From Nitrospira sp. (lineage in GTDB: Bacteria; Nitrospirota; Nitrospiria; Nitrospirales; Nitrospiraceae), in the NCBI GenBank assembly GCA_024998595.1, contig JACOEK010000006.1:1-64000 (forward strand): a DNA stretch of 64,000 nt, written 5' to 3'. The notes beneath the pieces were generated by a model that saw only the letters and a program-made list of their open reading frames with translations, searched no databases and was not told the DNA's origin. Position numbers and translations under genes: made by a program. Below are positions 1 through 11,150 of this stretch, in pieces; the first letter of the stretch is position 1, and every line of letters starts with the position of its first letter.

Positions 1-1060
1 CGCCCGCATCCACATCGGTGCCGGTCACTGTGCCCACCACGGTGCCGTTCGCCGCGTTCTCCACCACCGTGCTGGCTGAGAGACTCAGGTCCGCCGGTCT
101 CTCGTTCACCGCCGTGACGGTCACGCCGATCGCCTGCGTATCGATACCACCGTTTCCGTCGGACACTTGGACAGTCACATCGTAAACATTGTTACGGCCG
201 CTATCGGTCGGCGCCTCGAAATCCGGCGCGGACACAAAGGACAAGGCCCCGGTGCCGCTGTTGATTGCAAACTTGGCGGCATCGGCGCCCCCGACAATCG
301 AATACGTCAGCGTTTGTCTGGTATCGGCGTCGCTGGCCGTCACCGTGGTGACCGCCGTGGCATTCTCCGCAACATTGATGGCAGCGGTGGCCCCCGCCCC
401 GTTGCTGGTGATCCTGGGAGCCGCTTCATTCACATCGCTCACATTGATCGTAAAGATCTCGTCATAGGTCAACCCGGCGCGGTCCGTCACCCGCACCGTC
501 ACATTGTGACTGGTGGCGGCCTCATAATTGAGCAACGTTCTGTTCGCCACGGTCACGACGCCCGTGCTGCTGTTGATGGCGAAGCGACCGCCGGCGTTGT
601 CCGTCAAGGAGTACGTCTTGGAATCTCCGGTATCGGCATCGGTGCCACTGACGGTACCCACCACTGTGCCATTGGCGGCATTTTCCGCCACGATATTCGC
701 CGACAACGCCAGGTCCGTCGGCGCTTCATTGACGTTGGTCATTGTCACGGCGATGGCTTGGGTATCCGTGCCGCCCTGGCCGTCGGACACCTGCACCGTG
801 ACGTCGTACACATTATTCCCGCCGCTGTCCGTTGGGGCCTCGTAATTTGGCGCCGTGACAAAACTGAGCTGGCCCGTACTGCTGTCGATAGTGAATCGAG
901 CGGCGTCTGCTCCGCCGGCGATCGAATAGCCCAATGTTTGGCCTGCATCGACGTCAGAGGCCGTGACAGTCGTGACGACCGTGCTGTTCTCCGCGACGGT
1001 GACCGACGCCGTCGCGCCTCCGCCGTTGCCGCTGATCGTCGGCGCACTGTTCGGCACACC
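1..1060 (-). repeat. 624-bp tandem repeat encoding alternating cadherin-like modules
   Basis: Equivalent codons recur with a spacing of 624 bp (208 residues); for example ATCGAATA begins at 297 and again at 921 in matching contexts. Each unit encodes two alternating modules, one containing GGADAA(R/K)F and the other ending in VNEAPTDL or a variant. The array continues past the left edge. Nucleotide similarity between units is clear but has diverged, so this is an old or gene-converted duplication rather than a recent copy. Confidence 0.8.
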
Positions 1061-2320
1061 CGGGTCGTAGCTGACCTGCACGTTATCGACGTACAGGCGA
1101 TCGCCGCTGCCCACCCCCGTGACAATGAATTGAATCGTCGTACTCGCGGAGGCATACCCGGAAATGTCGAGATTGAAGGTGCCGCTTCCGGCATTCGTTT
1201 TAGGGGAGAAGACGCCGCCGATGAGCGTGCTGTAGGTCTTTCCGTCGGCTGAGACACGAATCTCGATTTGGCCGGAGCCCGACAATGAGTTGGTGTAATC
1301 GAATGATAAGGTTGCGGAGCTCGTGCCGGATAGATCGACCTGACGCGAAGCCTGATTGCCCACGGAACCGGCATCGATCCACAGTTGTGACTTGACGCCG
1401 ACGTCTCCGCCGCCGGCGCCGCCAGCGCCAGGATCGGTTTCGGACCAATCCGAGACCCACTTCTGAGTGCCGTCGTTATTGTCGTAGGCGCTCAAGGAGA
1501 ATTCGTCGCGCACCGTTTCGGTCGCCAGCAGCCCCTTCCAGTCCATCTGCGCGGCATCAGTGATCGCGAGGTCGGTCTCGATCGATCCCACCCGGGTTTC
1601 GAATACCCAATCGCCGCCCAAATCGATGTAACCGGTCCTGTCGATGCTCGCGGCCACGTCGGCGCCGGTGAGTTCGGCCAGCCTGGCAACAGCCGCCTGG
1701 CCCATCTCGCCCTCGGCAAAATTGCATCCATAGACGAGAATGTCTGCCTGCGACGAGAGGGACTGCTGAATCGTTGCCAACTCGTCCGCGTAACGAGTCG
1801 ACATCGACTCGGCGTTCAACGTGCCGGTGCCCAAGTGCAGCGTCCCTGCGTCACCGTGCGAAATGAGATGAATGGCGTCGATGCCCGATCGCCCGGCCAA
1901 CGACCCGGCGATCTGTTCGACACCGTCTCGCGAGGCATCCAACACCACGACTTCCACATTGGGTCCCATCCCGGCAACCAGGGATTGATAATCCGGAACC
2001 GTGGGGTCCACGAAGACGACTTCTGTCGTAGATTCCCCGGGACTGTAGGACGCAATCGCGTTGAGGAGTTCGTGAGACTCCTGCTGCTCAGGGGTCGAAT
2101 GGTCGTCAGTTCCTTCCGATGAGACCGCCGCCTCGGCCTGGTCCTGCGCCACTTGGTCGGATTTCACCTCGGCCGCGGTCGCCGCCGCCGCCGCGTCAAA
2201 CATCAACCGTTGCTCGAGGGATAGGAGCGATTGCTTGAAGGCAGACGGAGTCGCGGGAGAAGATGGCCGCTCCGATGGCTCACCCTTCCTCCGCAGATAC
2301 TTTTTAATAAACTCGAACAT
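1..2320 (-). CDS. Giant DUF4347/cadherin-repeat surface protein (3' end off window)
   Basis: The frame is open from an ATG at 2320 to the left edge, so about 773 codons of the N-terminal part are visible and the C-terminus is missing. Residues 35-42 read LEQRLMFD followed by an Ala-rich stretch, which resembles the LEPRxLFD-type N-terminal motif common in DUF4347 surface proteins. Residues of about 97-240 form a DUF4347 domain (VVFVDPTVPDY, HLISHGDAGTLHLG, ILVYGCNFAEG). A beta-sandwich-like region follows, then alternating cadherin-type repeats (TVTASDVDAGQTLGYSI, VNEAPTDLALSAN). It is probably an exported or cell-surface adhesin. The exporter-like genes immediately upstream on the same strand are the likely secretion machinery. 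There is no classical signal peptide. The family assignment is firm; the ligand is unknown. Confidence 0.85.
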   Translation of the reverse strand, partial: MFEFIKKYLRRKGEPSERPSSPATPSAFKQSLLSLEQRLMFDAAAAATAAEVKSDQVAQDQAEAAVSSEGTDDHSTPEQQESHELLNAIASYSPGESTTEVVFVDPTVPDYQSLVAGMGPNVEVVVLDASRDGVEQIAGSLAGRSGIDAIHLISHGDAGTLHLGTGTLNAESMSTRYADELATIQQSLSSQADILVYGCNFAEGEMGQAAVARLAELTGADVAASIDRTGYIDLGGDWVFETRVGSIETDLAITDAAQMDWKGLLATETVRDEFSLSAYDNNDGTQKWVSDWSETDPGAGGAGGGDVGVKSQLWIDAGSVGNQASRQVDLSGTSSATLSFDYTNSLSGSGQIEIRVSADGKTYSTLIGGVFSPKTNAGSGTFNLDISGYASASTTIQFIVTGVGSGDRLYVDNVQVSYDPGVPNSAPTISGNGGGATASVTVAENSTVVTTVTASDVDAGQTLGYSIAGGADAARFTIDSSTGQLSFVTAPNYEAPTDSGGNNVYDVTVQVSDGQGGTDTQAIAVTMTNVNEAPTDLALSANIVAENAANGTVVGTVSGTDADTGDSKTYSLTDNAGGRFAINSSTGVVTVANRTLLNYEAATSHNVTVRVTDRAGLTYDEIFTINVSDVNEAAPRITSNGAGATAAINVAENATAVTTVTASDADTRQTLTYSIVGGADAAKFAINSGTGALSFVSAPDFEAPTDSGRNNVYDVTVQVSDGNGGIDTQAIGVTVTAVNERPADLSLSASTVVENAANGTVVGTVTGTDVDAG

Positions 2321-2397
2321 ACCCGCAGCCTCAACCCAAAGGAATGATCGTCGCGGCGAAATTAGTCCTCTATCGGTGCGTTATCCCGCACTCCTGC

Positions 2398-4536
2398 TCA
2401 AAGCCCACTCTCCCGGATCATGACCGCCACGACTCGGTCCCACACCCGTGCAGCCAGGCTCTGAGGCTTCCCGGCGACGTGGATGAGCCCGGTCACGGTC
2501 TGATCCGCCCGCATAACCTCGTCCAGCACTTCAAGTTCTACTCGATAGACGGATTGCTCCGCCTGCAGACGGCCGTGCGAATCCTTTCGTACGGGCACGG
2601 CACCTCCGTAGATCGATGCCAGATAGGGAACGGACATATCCTGTTCGTCCACGTCCCGGATTTCGGTGACCCGGGCGCGAGTGGTCGGGCGCGTCACATC
2701 GTTTGGAATAAAGCGCGCCTCCTGCCCCACTGCCAGCACGCCCAGATGCTCCACCGGCGCAAGGGCTTCCACCAGGGCCGTTCGAGCATTCACCACATAC
2801 GCGACCGCCAGCTTCTCGTTGATCCACCGGCCTGGATACAGCGACTCGGCGGGATCAACCACCACGCCATCGATAGGCGCCCGCAGCACGAGGCGCTGCT
2901 GCTTCTCGGCAACCCCGTCCAGCTCGACGAGTTTCGATCGTAACGACTCGGCAAGGACCTGGGCTTGGTTACGATCCTCTGCGTATCCGGCCTGACGTTG
3001 CAGTCTGAAATCCAAGAGCTCGACCTGGGTCCTGGCCAACCGGGCCTCCTTGGCTAATTTCGGATTTTCGAGGACGAGCAACGTATCGCCTGCCCGCACC
3101 GGCTGCCCCGCATGCACCGATACCGACACAATCCGACCCGCCGCCGGAGGATAGACGGTGGCGTACGACCCGGCCTGCAGCACCCCGGGAATGGCTACGC
3201 GGCTGGACCATGGCACACAGGCGAGCAACAGCATCGCGGCCAGGACCGTCATCGTGACCGCAAAACGGCCCGTGCCGGCATATGCCGCGCGACGGCTCCA
3301 CCAAGCCTTGAACTCCCGCCCGATAGGCAGACAAATGAAAAAGAGGATCTCGACTAGAAAGAGCAGGATTCCGAGCAGCTTGAAAAAATAGTGATAGACC
3401 GTCAGGGCAATCCCGGTAAACAGGACCAGCCGATAGAGCCAGATGCTCCAGGCGTAGCCGACCAGCACCCGTCTGCTGGAGGGGCCGACCGCTTCAGGCG
3501 GAGGCGCGCCCGGCGCAAAGAACAACTCACGCATCCGCCACTGGCCGAAGGCAAAGGCCCGGTCCTGAAGATTGGGAAGGGCCAGCCAGTCTGCCAGGAG
3601 ATAATAGCCGTCAAACCTCATCAAAGGGTTCAGGTTAATGGCCAGGCTCATCACCCAACTCGTCGTCGCCGCCACGAAGACGAGGCTCCGAAGCAGCCCA
3701 TCCGGCAGGAACCCCCACAACAACGTCGCCACCGCAGCCAGACCGAGTTCGGCAACCACTCCGGCCGCGGCGATCCAGAGCCGTTTCCGCCTCGAACTGA
3801 GTCGATAGGCATCGCTGACGTCCGAATAGAGCACCGGCATCATCACCATCAAGGCCACACCGACCGTGGGCACTCGGCACCCGAATCGCGTCGCCGTATA
3901 GGCATGCCCCAATTCGTGCACCACCTTGACGGCGCAGAAGACCACGCCATACGTCAGCGCCCCGCTCCAGGTAAAAAAATGCAGGAAGGTCGAGAGAAAC
4001 GTGCTCCATTGCTGCCCGACCAGAAACAGCCCGATCGCGCCGGCGATTCCAAAGCACCATGCCGCCAGAGGCGTATAGAGCGGCGCGACCAGTGGCAGGG
4101 TCGCCTGCAGAAATTTATGCGGACGTACCAGGGGAATTTTGATGAACAGATAGTGGTGCAGCAACCATTGCCACCAGACATGGTGGCGCGCCGCTTCCTG
4201 CTCGACGTAATCCTTCGTCTGCCCGCTGGCCGATTGCTCCGTGAGGTTGTTCGCGTACAAGAACCTCACCAGATCTTCGACGTCCTCCGCGCCGATGCGC
4301 GACGTGGTATCGCGCCTGGTCACGGCGACGAGTTTTTCCACCGTCCCGCACGACCAGCGCTGCAAGAGTTGATAGACCGGCCACTCAATCTGGAAGTACT
4401 TGTTGCGGAGAGGATCGACGATCGTCCAGGTCGGCACCCCTTCTGGCGTGGGCGCCGCCCGAATAAATTGCAGCTGCTTTCTCAGCGGGGGCAACTTGCG
4501 TTCTTGAGGAGGTGTGACTGACGCCGGACCGGCCAT
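2398..4536 (-). CDS. M50 site-2-protease-like / HlyD fusion membrane protein
   Basis: This 712-residue protein joins an intramembrane metallopeptidase-like half to a membrane-fusion-protein half. HELGH at residues 207-211 and NLNPLMRFDGYY at 301-312 match the two zinc-site motifs of M50 peptidases, and they sit among several hydrophobic segments (about 140-430). From about residue 450 a barrel-sandwich/lipoyl-like region begins (VRAGDTLLVLENPKLAKEARLARTQ), as in HlyD adaptors. It starts 3 bases after the GAF-HlyD gene ends and precedes the giant adhesin gene, so a role in processing or exporting that protein is a reasonable inference. Whether it cleaves a substrate cannot be told from sequence. 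Confidence 0.8.
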   Translation of the reverse strand: MAGPASVTPPQERKLPPLRKQLQFIRAAPTPEGVPTWTIVDPLRNKYFQIEWPVYQLLQRWSCGTVEKLVAVTRRDTTSRIGAEDVEDLVRFLYANNLTEQSASGQTKDYVEQEAARHHVWWQWLLHHYLFIKIPLVRPHKFLQATLPLVAPLYTPLAAWCFGIAGAIGLFLVGQQWSTFLSTFLHFFTWSGALTYGVVFCAVKVVHELGHAYTATRFGCRVPTVGVALMVMMPVLYSDVSDAYRLSSRRKRLWIAAAGVVAELGLAAVATLLWGFLPDGLLRSLVFVAATTSWVMSLAINLNPLMRFDGYYLLADWLALPNLQDRAFAFGQWRMRELFFAPGAPPPEAVGPSSRRVLVGYAWSIWLYRLVLFTGIALTVYHYFFKLLGILLFLVEILFFICLPIGREFKAWWSRRAAYAGTGRFAVTMTVLAAMLLLACVPWSSRVAIPGVLQAGSYATVYPPAAGRIVSVSVHAGQPVRAGDTLLVLENPKLAKEARLARTQVELLDFRLQRQAGYAEDRNQAQVLAESLRSKLVELDGVAEKQQRLVLRAPIDGVVVDPAESLYPGRWINEKLAVAYVVNARTALVEALAPVEHLGVLAVGQEARFIPNDVTRPTTRARVTEIRDVDEQDMSVPYLASIYGGAVPVRKDSHGRLQAEQSVYRVELEVLDEVMRADQTVTGLIHVAGKPQSLAARVWDRVVAVMIRESGL

Positions 4537-4539
4537 CGG

Positions 4540-5904
4540 CTACACTCCGATCAGTTGGCGCAACGCCGTGAACGGACGCCGGAACAAGAGGAATGCCAGC
4601 GGGCCACGCTCTCCGTAGACCTTCGCCGACCCTTGCCAGCCAATACGGATTCGGGGATCGGCAACCGCTAACTCGGCCGTGACCCGATAGGCCAGTACAT
4701 CGCCCGGCAGCACCTCCGCATGGTAACTCGCCCGGCTCACAGTCGCCTCGAATGATTCCAATGGGAGCGCGTCGAAGAACGCCACCGCATTGGCCCCTTC
4801 CTGCAACAGCAGCGCGTCACTCACAGGCAAATCGATGCGCAACTCGATGCGCCGGGGATCGGCAATCTCCATAATCCGTTCCCCGACGGCAACAGGTTTT
4901 CCGACCCAGTCGGCCTTGTCGGTATACAGGAGCAAGCCCGGCTGCGGCGCGCGAACTTCGACCTGCTCCAACATCTCCCTCGCGTACGCCAGTTCCGCCT
5001 CTTTCAAGGCCGCTTCGGCGGCTTTGAGGGGAACCTCTGCTTTTCGTTGCGGATCGGCAAACCCGCCCTGAACAGCCTGAGCATGTTCGGCCTCCGCCAC
5101 GGCCAATTGCTTCTCCGCCACCTGGAACTGATTCCGGAGATTCGTGTCCTCGTAGCGGAACAGCGGCCGATCCTGCGCGACCATCGTATTCGGCGGCACC
5201 CGGACCTCGGCAATGACACCGTCCATCGGCGCGCTCACAATCGTGGGCTCCTTTGCCATCACCTTCACCGGCGCGATCGTCGACACCCGCACGGGCACAC
5301 AGAGCGCTGACGCGATCGCCGCGCCGATCAACCAGGCCGACGGTTTCTTGATCCGCGTTGGCCACGTCCGACTTCGCTTCGCCACCGCTTTCCACGCATA
5401 GGCAAAGCTTCCGGCCAGCCGCTGCATGATCGCCACATCGTTTTCTTCCCACGGGCTCTCACGTTCGAACCACCAAATCCCCAACACCGTTTCGTCCGGA
5501 TGCCGCAACGGGCACCAGAGGACGTGGCCACGCACATGCTCACGCCATCCCTCGCGGCACGCCACGGGACAGGTTTCCTCCGTCACGATCCTGGGCTCAT
5601 CGCCCGACCCCTCTTGCCTCAGCGCGTGAGTTATCTGCTCCAACCAGCGGATCACCGGCGCATCACGTTCCACGACCGCCACACTGGAGGCGCAGATCAC
5701 CCGGTAGGCGTCGGTATCTCCACTGGCATGACTCAGCAGATAGGCCTGCTCATAAGGCACCAATCGGCGGGTTTCATTGACGGAAATAAACTGCAGCTCT
5801 TGAATGGTTTTGGCCACACGGATCTGCCCCTCCAGGTGCGTGAGGGTCGCCAGATGGACCAGCGTTGCGAGTTCCTGCGCGCTTGGTGCAGTGGAGGTCG
5901 TCAT
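4540..5904 (-). CDS. GAF-domain / HlyD-type membrane-fusion protein
   Basis: A 454-residue protein. The first 170 or so residues look like a GAF domain (SVNETRRLVPYEQAYLLS, VLGIWWFERESPWEENDV). A single transmembrane segment lies near 190-207 (AWLIGAAIASALCVPV). The C-terminal half has the HlyD biotinyl-lipoyl-like pattern with a coiled-coil hairpin (NQFQVAEKQLAVAEAEHAQAV) and a return beta-barrel. It lies 4 bases downstream of the short adaptor gene and 3 bases upstream of the M50-HlyD gene, so all are probably co-transcribed. A cytosolic GAF domain on an exporter adaptor suggests that a small molecule or oligomerisation controls export; that is inference. Confidence 0.75.
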   Translation of the reverse strand: MTTSTAPSAQELATLVHLATLTHLEGQIRVAKTIQELQFISVNETRRLVPYEQAYLLSHASGDTDAYRVICASSVAVVERDAPVIRWLEQITHALRQEGSGDEPRIVTEETCPVACREGWREHVRGHVLWCPLRHPDETVLGIWWFERESPWEENDVAIMQRLAGSFAYAWKAVAKRSRTWPTRIKKPSAWLIGAAIASALCVPVRVSTIAPVKVMAKEPTIVSAPMDGVIAEVRVPPNTMVAQDRPLFRYEDTNLRNQFQVAEKQLAVAEAEHAQAVQGGFADPQRKAEVPLKAAEAALKEAELAYAREMLEQVEVRAPQPGLLLYTDKADWVGKPVAVGERIMEIADPRRIELRIDLPVSDALLLQEGANAVAFFDALPLESFEATVSRASYHAEVLPGDVLAYRVTAELAVADPRIRIGWQGSAKVYGERGPLAFLLFRRPFTALRQLIGV

Positions 5905-5908
5905 GGTC

Positions 5909-6694
5909 TTACGGTTGCCCCGATGAGAATTGAGCCGTGCCGCTCATTCCGGCCAACACATCGGCCGGCAGGGATCCGAAACTGCCCACCACCTTGACCG
6001 TCTGGCTGGCGGGATCGACATTGGCCCCGATTTCCTTCACCTTCGCCGGATATTCCCGATGGGTCTCGTCGATGATAAAGGTGAACGGGGACTTCCGCTT
6101 GAGCCAGGCCAAGGTCGAGGAAGGGAGGACCAACTCGATCTCCAGACTGGTGTCATCGAGGAGACTGAGCAGCTTGTCGTTGGGAAACACGTTTTCATGC
6201 TCGTTGACCATGACGGCCACCACGCGGCCGGAAAACGGCGCCGCGATATGGCAACTCCGCACGTTAATCTCCGCAAGACGAATCGATGCCGCCGCTTTTT
6301 TCGCTTCGGCTTCTGAGATTTCCAGCTCCAACGTGCTCACGGCATTGAGCTTGGTCAGTTCCCTGTTGTTCCGAACCGTCTTGTCCTTCGCTTCATGTTC
6401 GGCCAGAGCCCCCGCCAATTCCGCCCGGTACTTGTCGCAGTCGATTTCGACCAGCGATGCGCCCTTCTCGAACCGTTGCCCCTCCTTCACCGGCATCTGG
6501 CTGATCCGCCCCTGAATCTGGGAATGGAGCACGGCCTGGGTGCTGGCTTTGACGATGCCACGTAACGCGCTGTTGACACCCCGCATCACTGGGAGCGGAC
6601 GGTCGTCTTTCGGCCAACCAACGTGCGGAACGACCACTGCCGTGAACAAGATGGTCAGCACGACCATCGATTTAATTGGCCAATGGGATCGCAT
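5909..6694 (-). CDS. Short periplasmic adaptor (membrane-fusion protein, RND/HlyD type)
   Basis: A 261-residue protein with an N-terminal signal or anchor segment (MVVLTILFTAVVVPHVG). The lipoyl-like half-motifs flank a helical hairpin (IQGRISQMPVKEGQRFEKGASLVEIDCDKYRAEL and then CHIAAPFSGRVVAVMVNEHE). It is shorter than a typical RND adaptor (about 350-400 residues) and lacks an obvious membrane-proximal domain. It overlaps the TolC-type gene by 23 bp, which implies translational coupling. It probably bridges the inner-membrane HlyD/M50 proteins and the outer-membrane channel. Confidence 0.75.
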   Translation of the reverse strand: MRSHWPIKSMVVLTILFTAVVVPHVGWPKDDRPLPVMRGVNSALRGIVKASTQAVLHSQIQGRISQMPVKEGQRFEKGASLVEIDCDKYRAELAGALAEHEAKDKTVRNNRELTKLNAVSTLELEISEAEAKKAAASIRLAEINVRSCHIAAPFSGRVVAVMVNEHENVFPNDKLLSLLDDTSLEIELVLPSSTLAWLKRKSPFTFIIDETHREYPAKVKEIGANVDPASQTVKVVGSFGSLPADVLAGMSGTAQFSSGQP

Positions 6695-8225
6695 AGGACT
6701 CCGGACTCCTTCCTGGTTCCGACACCGTCTTGACGGCAGGCGCCCGCTGCTTCCGCAATTCCTCGGCCAGCGAGGCTACGCTTTGCTCGCTGGTGCCGGT
6801 CGGCGCGGCATCTTCGCCGATCGACGCCATCAACGTGGCATAGGCCGACTCGACGCCGGACTGCGCGCTGTCCATGCGCACTTCAGCCAGCACATCGTTC
6901 ACCCGCTCACGAATGAAGGTCAGGTCATTGGTACTCTTCGTGAGCCACAGGTTCTTGGTATGGTCGGTGATCGCCAATTGCGTTTCGTGGTAGCTCCTGG
7001 CATTGACATATTCCTGACTCGCATGGGCGAACTGCAGCGCGCCGACATGCACCTCGGTCAGGATGGTCATGGTCAACGCGAGACTTTGGGCATCCAACAC
7101 CTGGCGATGCGCCTCTACCGCTTTCAGTTTGGCCGGCACGCGAAACGCCGACAGAAGATTCCAACTGAGCTGAGAGGCATACCCCAACCAGTTTTGATAA
7201 AGAAGAAAGCTGTTGCTGCTGTAAAACCCGCCGACACTCAGCTTCAGGTTAGGAAACATTTCCAGGAATACGGTGCGCGCTTCCTTCGCATTGATCCGTT
7301 TTTGATAATCGAGAGAGCGAAGCTCGGCGCGCAGCAACAAGGCCTGCTCCTCCATCCGCCCGGTATCCAGCTCGACCACCGGAAGGGTGCCTGTCCGCTG
7401 AGGCACAGCCAGGTCAAACTCGGTTCCCGGGGGCAAACCCATCATCGATGCCAGCTGGACCCGTGCCGTGCTCAGCTCACGGTAGAGGCGCTGTACCTCG
7501 CGCTGAATGTTCAGCAAGTCGCGGCGATAGTTGAGCGGGGTCAAAGGCGTCTGCAGTTTCTTGTCGACTATTTGTTGCGCGCGCTCCAAGGCCTTGTTGA
7601 CGGACTCATCCAGAAATTTCACCCGATAGAGCACCCGTTCCGCGCTGACCGCCCGCCAGTAGGCGCTCCGGACATCCTGGACGAGACGTACCGCAATCCG
7701 CCGCCGCTCCTCCTCGGCAATCATGACGTTGTCGGCTGCCTGCTGCGCGCGCACGTAGGAGAGACCGAAGTCGAGCACGTCCCAACTCAGGGCGAGATTG
7801 CCCGACACCACGTTCTTATCGGACGACGTAAAGGGTTCGAGTACGGGTCGACCGGTGAGCAACGATTGCGCGCCACCGCCGCTATAGGAGTTACGGCCGT
7901 CGAACCCGGCATTTGCCGATAGCTGCGGCAGCAAGGTGTAATGCGCGACGTTTAATTGCTGGTGCGCCAACTGCGCCTGCATGGCTTTGACTTTGGCATC
8001 CAGGTTGTATTTCAACGCTCGGGCGATAGCTTCATACAGATCGATCGGACCGGACAGCGGCTCCTGGACGTTCGCCACCATCTGAAGGTCATTCACGGCA
8101 CGGGTCCGGACATCGTCTTCAGTCAATACATAGGGCTTGATCAGGCACCCTGAGACGGACACGACCGTCCCCAATAGACCGATTATTCGAAGAAGTCCTC
8201 GTGGCATCGCGTTATTTCTCGACAC
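6672..8225 (-). CDS. TolC-family outer-membrane efflux lipoprotein
   Basis: A 517-residue protein starting with a lipoprotein signal (LLGTVVSVSGC, Cys at about residue 27). It then has the long helical repeats of the TolC/OEP family (YEAIARALKYNLDAKVKAMQAQLAHQQLNVA, RVRLVQDVRSAYWRAVSAERVL). It would form the outer-membrane duct of a tripartite exporter. It is the first gene of the minus-strand operon that ends with the giant adhesin. No ABC or RND transporter gene is visible next to it. Confidence 0.85.
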   Translation of the reverse strand: MSRNNAMPRGLLRIIGLLGTVVSVSGCLIKPYVLTEDDVRTRAVNDLQMVANVQEPLSGPIDLYEAIARALKYNLDAKVKAMQAQLAHQQLNVAHYTLLPQLSANAGFDGRNSYSGGGAQSLLTGRPVLEPFTSSDKNVVSGNLALSWDVLDFGLSYVRAQQAADNVMIAEEERRRIAVRLVQDVRSAYWRAVSAERVLYRVKFLDESVNKALERAQQIVDKKLQTPLTPLNYRRDLLNIQREVQRLYRELSTARVQLASMMGLPPGTEFDLAVPQRTGTLPVVELDTGRMEEQALLLRAELRSLDYQKRINAKEARTVFLEMFPNLKLSVGGFYSSNSFLLYQNWLGYASQLSWNLLSAFRVPAKLKAVEAHRQVLDAQSLALTMTILTEVHVGALQFAHASQEYVNARSYHETQLAITDHTKNLWLTKSTNDLTFIRERVNDVLAEVRMDSAQSGVESAYATLMASIGEDAAPTGTSEQSVASLAEELRKQRAPAVKTVSEPGRSPESYAIPLAN

Positions 8226-10598: not shown

Positions 10599-11150
10599 TT
10601 ATGACTTGTCGCAATGACGAATCACCCCGACGAGCACTCCTTCGATGGCGAAGTCATCGGCGGCGGTCACCAGCAAAGGTTTCATCGTGGCATTAGCGGG
10701 ATGAAGTTCGACGGACCGCTCCCGCTTGAAATAGGTCTTAATCGTCGCTTGCCCGTTGACCAGGGCCACCACCGTCTGGCCGTTGTGTGCAGTCGGTTGT
10801 TTCCGGACCACGACCAGATCGCCGGGGAGAATCCCATCTTCGATCATCGAGTCGCCTTTGACCCGGAGCGCGAACGTCTCTCCGGCCCGCACCATGCTGG
10901 GCGGCACATCAACCCACTCCGATTGCGTCACGGGTTCGATAGGCACCCCGGCGGCGACCACCCCTGCCATGAGGACCTGCCCCCTGTTCACCAGCTGGGT
11001 TAGGGCCACCTCGACTGCTCCGCTGATACGACGCATCCCGGATTCGTAACGAGCCACAGATACGCGTGTCGTACGCAAAGCCTCGGCCAGCTGTTCCTGC
11101 GTAAACCCCAACTGCTCCCGGCAACTTCGAAATTGTTTCGGCGTCATCAT
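10599..11150 (-). CDS. XRE-HTH / S24 LexA-like self-cleaving repressor
   Basis: A 183-residue repressor with an XRE-type helix-turn-helix (FRSCREQLGFTQEQLAEALRTTRVSVARYESG, residues 7-38) joined to a LexA/UmuD-like S24 peptidase domain. The expected cleavage site is Ala67-Gly68 (VAAG), the catalytic Ser is S101 (GDSMIEDG) and the Lys is K138 (QATIKTYF); S101 lies 33 residues after the cleavage Gly, as in LexA. The XRE head makes it more like phage CI/HdiR-type repressors than LexA, which has a winged helix. A palindrome abuts the start codon, suggesting autoregulation. The two small downstream genes are the first candidates for its regulon. Confidence 0.9.
   Translation of the reverse strand: MMTPKQFRSCREQLGFTQEQLAEALRTTRVSVARYESGMRRISGAVEVALTQLVNRGQVLMAGVVAAGVPIEPVTQSEWVDVPPSMVRAGETFALRVKGDSMIEDGILPGDLVVVRKQPTAHNGQTVVALVNGQATIKTYFKRERSVELHPANATMKPLLVTAADDFAIEGVLVGVIRHCDKS

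Follow-up and report, generated by a model that had tools for sequence, protein, structure and literature searches.

The stretch of Nitrospira DNA analysed here (the window) comprises the first 64 kb of its contig and carries at its left end five genes on the minus strand, which form an export-type operon. All five open reading frames (ORFs) were recovered as originally predicted, namely a TolC-type lipoprotein, a short adaptor, a GAF-HlyD protein, an M50-HlyD protein and a giant DUF4347 protein with the motif LEQRLMFD. The TolC-like outer-membrane lipoprotein (6672..8225, 517 amino acids) matches Pfam OEP with 5.9e-26 and possesses a lipobox, VSGC, that was read directly; the ATG at 8207 represents an alternative start. 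The end of this gene overlaps with the gene of a short HlyD/MFP periplasmic adaptor of 261 amino acids (5909..6694; HlyD_3 5.8e-19, TIGR01730 118.6 bits against a cut-off of 94.9). The third product is a GAF-like/HlyD adaptor of 454 amino acids (4540..5904), which is conserved in orthologues and has its two parts separated by a hydrophobic segment. Its HlyD part is solid (HlyD_3 6e-12), whereas the case for the proposed signal control via GAF is weak, the GAF match (9.2e-4, 20.2 bits) staying below the cut-off of 22.4 and only three of 13 orthologues reaching GAF at E 0.01. The fourth gene (2398..4536) encodes a fusion of 712 amino acids, which combines a domain resembling the RRE (recognition element of ribosomally synthesized and post-translationally modified peptides, RiPPs) with an M50 site-2 protease (Peptidase_M50, 34.1 bits) and an HlyD part (HlyD_3 4.4e-14). 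The gene of the giant protein (2..2320, 773 amino acids visible; DUF4347 1.1e-58 plus cadherin repeats) is cut at the contig end. Since the window begins at contig position 1, the sequence left of base 1 is unreadable, and relatives were used in its place.

The nearest relatives are also Nitrospira, among them Candidatus N. defluvii with 86% identity over the fusion, and the gene order TolC, HlyD, GAF-HlyD, M50-HlyD, giant DUF4347 protein is kept in about 20 Nitrospira genomes. The same gene set was found in Variovorax, Hyphomicrobium and Azospirillum; the giant gene precedes TolC in several carriers, Variovorax and Azospirillum among them. This conserved order and gene set is more than chance. 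With a probability of roughly 55%, we read the operon as an apparatus dedicated to the export and processing of giant surface proteins with an N-terminal tag of the LEPR-XLL type, for which we infer the recognition, the cleavage and the motor.

Giant proteins with a LEPR-XLL-type tag

The giant protein of the window has a basic N-terminus with the pattern LExRxxxD and lacks a hydrophobic signal peptide; likewise, no hydrophobic signal segment was found within the first 130 residues of six annotated giants. The motif itself, LEQRLMFDA at residues 35-43 (2192..2218, minus strand), was read directly. Like the LEPR-XLL domain proteins of NCBI (NCBIfam NF012209), the giant carries an N-terminal motif on a very long protein, but NCBI only names the motif, and the window copy (15.5 bits) is just under the curated cut-off of 17 bits, while a relative (L012) reaches 19 bits. 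An export route for the tag was not assigned in the open-access papers that we found. Complete relatives of the giant comprise 1396-2594 amino acids, and the longest motif-bearing ORF has 14,112 residues. As the other domains vary (DUF4347, LamG, Ig-like), the motif is the common feature of these giants. Up to five LEPR-XLL ORFs per genome, with 5,806 to 14,112 residues, were observed in three genomes of the gammaproteobacterial sample (G289, G102, G156). Furthermore, many but not all giants (L007, L012, L026, L062, L063, L112, L119) show a conserved hydrophobic C-terminal segment, often followed by DPLPV.

The DUF4347 domain (1526..2020, minus strand; PF14252, 198.1 bits against a cut-off of 24.6) looks like a putative cysteine protease of the caspase/CHAT type (clan CD-like). 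Its fold matched 9qpe_G (Z 12.5, 136 residues, rmsd 2.6), CHAT proteases (Z 8.2-8.5) and caspases (Z 6-8), and at the positions of the putative dyad His155/Cys199 the Cys is conserved in 71/71 and the His (His-Gly) in 66/71 cases. Because of this resemblance, self-processing of the giant is possible. For the solved DUF4347 protein, Tce1/PA0256, a His/Cys dyad and a putative role as cysteine protease were described (PMC13323088), and its DUF4347 is also noted in PMC8262886. Tce1, a cargo of the type VI secretion system (T6SS), shares the fold and the putative dyad with the giants. Nevertheless, the sequence similarity to their DUF4347 is weak (E 0.001-0.006), and in the giants of the operon the domain sits behind the LEPR tag in a giant repeat protein, without a T6SS.

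The M50-HlyD fusion and its link to the tag

Three modules appear to make up the fusion: a PqqD/RRE-like domain for leader binding, an intact site-2 protease resembling RseP, and an HlyD adaptor. In its AlphaFold2 model (mean pLDDT 74), residues 13-98 (4243..4500, minus strand) form three strands and then three helices (beta-beta-beta-alpha-alpha-alpha), as in the PqqD/RRE domain, followed by a helical membrane part and an adaptor part. A divergent group of the same fusions has a related N-terminal domain (hhalign probability 96, E 2.9e-9), and this group matches PqqD itself: PF05402 reaches 28 bits in L064, above its cut-off of 23.4, and remains under the threshold in others, PqqD (3g2b) is the top PDB hit with TfuB1 also among the top hits, and some members are named 'PqqD family' by NCBI. 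A fold search with the whole chain returned mostly HlyD folds and did not list RRE structures, which says little. Beside the PqqD-M50-HlyD fusion of L064 we observed a 98-residue ORF (2509-2805, minus strand) with NIDELEERIAPG, which may be a short relative of the LEPR tag.

The site-2 protease core (residues 188-320; 3577..3975, minus strand) superimposes on the RseP orthologue 7w6z with Z 10.8 over 131 residues (rmsd 3.0), and it carries the HExxH and NxxPxxxxDG motifs of M50 site-2 proteases. The zinc motif HELGH (residues 207-211; 3904..3918) and the motif NLNPLMRFDG with the third zinc ligand (residues 301-310; 3607..3636) are fully conserved at their decisive positions, with H207, E208, H211 and D309 present in 52/52 diverse relatives. 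The HlyD/MFP part (residues 422-695; 2452..3273, minus strand) matches MacA, MexA and EmrA with Z 14-16. The fusion thus agrees with RseP and other site-2 proteases in both motifs and in the membrane core fold, but differs from them by its RRE-like domain, its HlyD adaptor and its context, which is secretion instead of stress signalling. The processing of the N-terminal motif by the M50 protease, as suggested in the original prediction, is therefore plausible with regard to the intact active site and a domain suited to leader binding; the cleavage itself stays a prediction.

The nearest NCBIfam models of the fusion are peptide-maturation proteases (daptide 3.9e-48, YydH/LiaK 1.7e-7), though all matches are below the cut-offs. 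The RRE-like domain and the M50 protease of the fusion have counterparts, the latter from the same superfamily, among RiPP leader-processing enzymes (PqqD/RRE proteins, the M50 protease YydH/LiaK and the HExxH protease of daptides). Unlike these, the fusion has its M50 part joined to HlyD, and in place of a peptide its substrate would be a protein with some 500 to 14,000 residues. Such models, together with the established fact that M50 proteases often act in signalling, also suit the assumption that the giant leaves by another route, that the M50-HlyD protein serves as a signalling or quality-control protease or exports small molecules or peptides, and that the genes stand together for regulation. 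We regard this as unlikely, since, across phyla and in either clade of the fusion, the partner that stays constant is the giant motif protein, with differing other domains (DUF4347, LamG, Ig-like), and since no precursor-peptide or modification gene is conserved in the operon.

The distribution of its parts speaks for the reading as a dedicated apparatus. In Nitrospira and the same order, 20 of 41 genomes have the full-length fusion (E below 1e-100), and precisely these 20 have DUF4347 (Fisher 3.7e-12; this and the following p-values treat genomes as independent, which they are not). Another Nitrospira genome (G046) has a truncated fusion, and DUF4347 was not found in it. Among 369 genomes of Gammaproteobacteria, DUF4347 was detected in 48, the fusion in 58 after removal of three partial matches, and both in 37 (p 3.5e-26); the fusion count is a lower bound, because only the three best candidates per genome were scored. 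The DUF4347 proteins bear a LEPR-type motif in about 35 of 36 readable gammaproteobacterial genomes with the fusion compared to 2 of 10 without it (p 7e-6, computed with 34/36; a few of the 35 calls were made by eye, as the pattern missed a variant). Several DUF4347 proteins of the fusion-less genomes have Sec-like signal peptides. The LEPR-XLL profile of NCBI matches 28 Gammaproteobacteria, 26 of which possess the fusion (p 1.2e-21), and when the genomes with DUF4347 are left aside, the fusion is still found in five of the seven remaining (p 1.4e-5). The link between motif and protease is strong, and the correlation between the motif protein and the M50 fusion in other genomes was confirmed.

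A different target of the protease has to be considered as well. Site-2 proteases are known to cut in or near membrane segments, and complete Nitrospira giants end in the conserved hydrophobic segment, with similar ends in L112 and L119, which might be the true M50 target, cut for release from the membrane, while the N-terminal motif has some other role. This is very unlikely, as various carriers of the fusion, among them Variovorax, Kosakonia, E. coli and L057, lack the segment, whereas the motif is almost always present. As a universal target, the C-terminal segment was rejected, because it is real in Nitrospira and some others but absent from several substrates.

ABC transporters, SecA and two fusion clades

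The operon of the window contains no gene for an ATP-binding cassette (ABC) or resistance-nodulation-division (RND) transporter or for SecA. Moreover, neither N. defluvii (L007) nor UBC2 (L013), whose chromosome is a single contig, shows an ABC exporter beside the cluster. The ABC ATPases encoded in the examined Nitrospira flanks are limited to a TOBE-type importer ATPase and an ABC-F-like protein, and seven plasmid-borne operons from other genera contain no ABC gene in the cluster. The original view of an export-type operon without ABC or RND transporter therefore stands for the window, its closed relatives and these plasmids. With type I secretion systems (ABC, HlyD and TolC, e.g. those of LapA/RTX giant adhesins) the operon shares the TolC-like channel, the HlyD-type adaptors and a giant repetitive surface protein without Sec signal peptide. 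It differs in lacking the ABC ATPase, in having three adaptors, one of them fused to a protease, and in the N-terminal tag of its giant as opposed to RTX repeats. The system resembles TolC-dependent export, yet the ABC ATPase, by which type I secretion is defined, is missing from the operon.

Ordinary type I secretion could nevertheless operate with an ABC ATPase encoded elsewhere, the operon providing adaptors and TolC and the M50 part being accessory. Indeed, an ABC exporter of the LssB type and of full length exists elsewhere in the window's genome and in most Nitrospira; it scores about 570 bits with TIGR03375, which is below the cut-off. But this exporter is also present in Nitrospira without the operon, whereas three operon-bearing genomes (G009, assembled in one contig, G033 and G038) show ABC matches of partial length only. 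We rejected it as the partner in trans for these two reasons, its presence being independent of the operon and a full-length match being absent from the three genomes. Furthermore, RTX repeats (GGxGxDx(L/I/F/V)) were counted 0 times in six complete giant proteins; such repeats are not universal among type I secretion substrates. Taken together with the plasmid-borne sets that lack an ABC gene and with sister operons that supply a SecA-like ATPase instead, this makes ordinary type I secretion quite unlikely.

For a dedicated apparatus, these SecA-like ATPases deserve attention. In a tree of 42 fusions, the clade of the window, here called type I, is split with full support from a second clade, type II. 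In type II operons there is often a gene for a SecA-like protein, some 640-670 residues long, that has SecA_DEAD, cross-linking and P-loop domains (L057, L058, L059, L060, L067, L101, L121, L174, L175, L181, L182). A second SecA occurs in exactly those seven Nitrospira genomes that have a type II fusion (p 4.4e-8), and in Gammaproteobacteria the SecA-like gene was found in 24 of 36 type II genomes, in 0 of 15 with type I only and in 0 of 22 without fusion. The genome of the window has one SecA (905 amino acids), and a second, short SecA-like ATPase was not found in it. Accessory SecA2 systems are similar insofar as a second, short SecA-like ATPase stands beside an exporter in type II operons; unlike these, the type II ATPase is coupled to HlyD/TolC and an M50 protease, scores below the cut-offs of the known SecA2 families and is absent from the window's genome. 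In public records it is labelled 'DEAD/DEAH box helicase' or 'prepilin peptidase'. A gene for a small DUF3467 protein adjoins several alphaproteobacterial type II operons (L181 9845-10126, L182 8793-9098, L175 9744-10064).

The two clades also differ in residue 8 of the motif, which is D in all ten type I genomes (e.g. LEPRLMFDG) and S or A in 25 of the 28 remaining ones (e.g. LEPRILLSA). Two of the three exceptions with D fall in the sister clade of type I, as does G355, which was scored as type I; the non-type-I genome G226 also has D, and its fusion lies on the type I side of the tree. This pattern would fit a co-evolution of leader and receptor.

Spread, proposed route and meaning

The type I set was found on plasmids of Azospirillum, Niveispirillum, Variovorax, Burkholderia, Kosakonia, Magnetospirillum and E. 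coli; the partner protein in Magnetospirillum has 492 residues only and, as annotated, no LEPR motif. The full five-gene set is present on the IncHI1B plasmid NZ_CP060066.1 of E. coli strain G5 (L186 728-18106), which was isolated from the faeces of a healthy person. There the order is giant, TolC, HlyD, HlyD and fusion, the latter with intact HELGH, and the giant comprises 3668 residues with LESRQLFDG, DUF4347 and bacterial Ig/cadherin-like repeats. The fusion gene occurs in 24 of 5426 complete E. coli genomes, in one of which the complete set was read. Small-protein genes annotated as tail fiber (L172 16128-18235, L171 230-898, L178 4010-4301) adjoin several of the plasmid-borne type I operons, and the one such protein tested has a phage tail collar domain (PF07484). 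The genome G019 contains a second operon copy (L063 6694-15866) with decayed exporter genes and an intact giant gene, in addition to an intact operon elsewhere. Upstream of the operon in the window lies a Tll0287-like gene (PF11845; 8890-9702, minus strand), which is unmatched beside the operon in the relatives examined. The window and N. defluvii (L007) both have genes for an S24/LexA-like repressor (10599-11150 of the window, minus strand) and a TraT-like protein (PF05818; 11664-12383 of the window, plus strand) in the vicinity of the operon.

PqqD/RRE-like domains bind peptide leaders, and the one in the fusion would bind the LEPR tag. Cleavage of the leader, at the membrane or within it, would then fall to the M50 site-2 protease with its intact active site. 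Three components assigned by homology, namely the short HlyD protein, GAF-HlyD and the HlyD part of the fusion, would together form a periplasmic adaptor that docks on TolC for passage to the surface, where the caspase-like DUF4347 may cut the giant itself. That the protease pulls its substrate through, as had also been proposed, found no support, since nothing suggests a motor role; a SecA-like ATPase is found in the sister clade only. Energy might instead come from a housekeeping motor, perhaps most likely SecA with the Sec channel. We propose it because many type II operons bring a SecA-like ATPase of their own while the clade of the window does not encode one, and prefer a housekeeping motor for type I because the type I set moves on plasmids as a unit. 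In a broader sense, the operons could tentatively be assigned to an unnamed class of Gram-negative secretion, in which a PqqD/RRE-site-2 protease-HlyD fusion recognises the LEPR-XLL leader and hands giants to TolC, the motor being SecA, in one clade a dedicated copy and in the other the housekeeping one, and not an ABC ATPase; we give this wider claim somewhat less than even chances.

Several observations weigh against the proposed apparatus. In a sequence search against the PDB, the N-terminal domain of the window's fusion group matched no RRE structure, which makes its PqqD/RRE assignment indirect. In four motif-bearing genomes the fusion was undetected even with a second (type II) profile, i.e. 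they show no M50 part. Conversely, 21 Gammaproteobacteria have the fusion without DUF4347, and a motif protein was seen in only some of them, often because contigs break in the giant gene. The type I clade encodes no motor of its own, given that the SecA-like gene is confined to type II genomes and that the window's genome has a single SecA. Finally, the match at residue 8 amounts to little more than one event, because it is close to a single split in the tree.

A description of this system, be it the motif, the domain combination or the component sets, was not found in the open literature searched. The parts are known, and their combination and tie to LEPR-XLL proteins look like an apparently undescribed variant of TolC-dependent export. 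In Nitrospira and several proteobacterial classes, our data connect the LEPR-XLL tag to one apparatus; they provide a specific prediction in which residue 8 of the motif is matched to the protease clade, and they locate a complete gene set on an E. coli plasmid and thus in a tractable species. If the proposed reading is right, the ABC ATPase would be dispensable for the export of such giant proteins, and the leader-peptide logic of RiPPs would also hold for proteins as long as about 14,000 residues.

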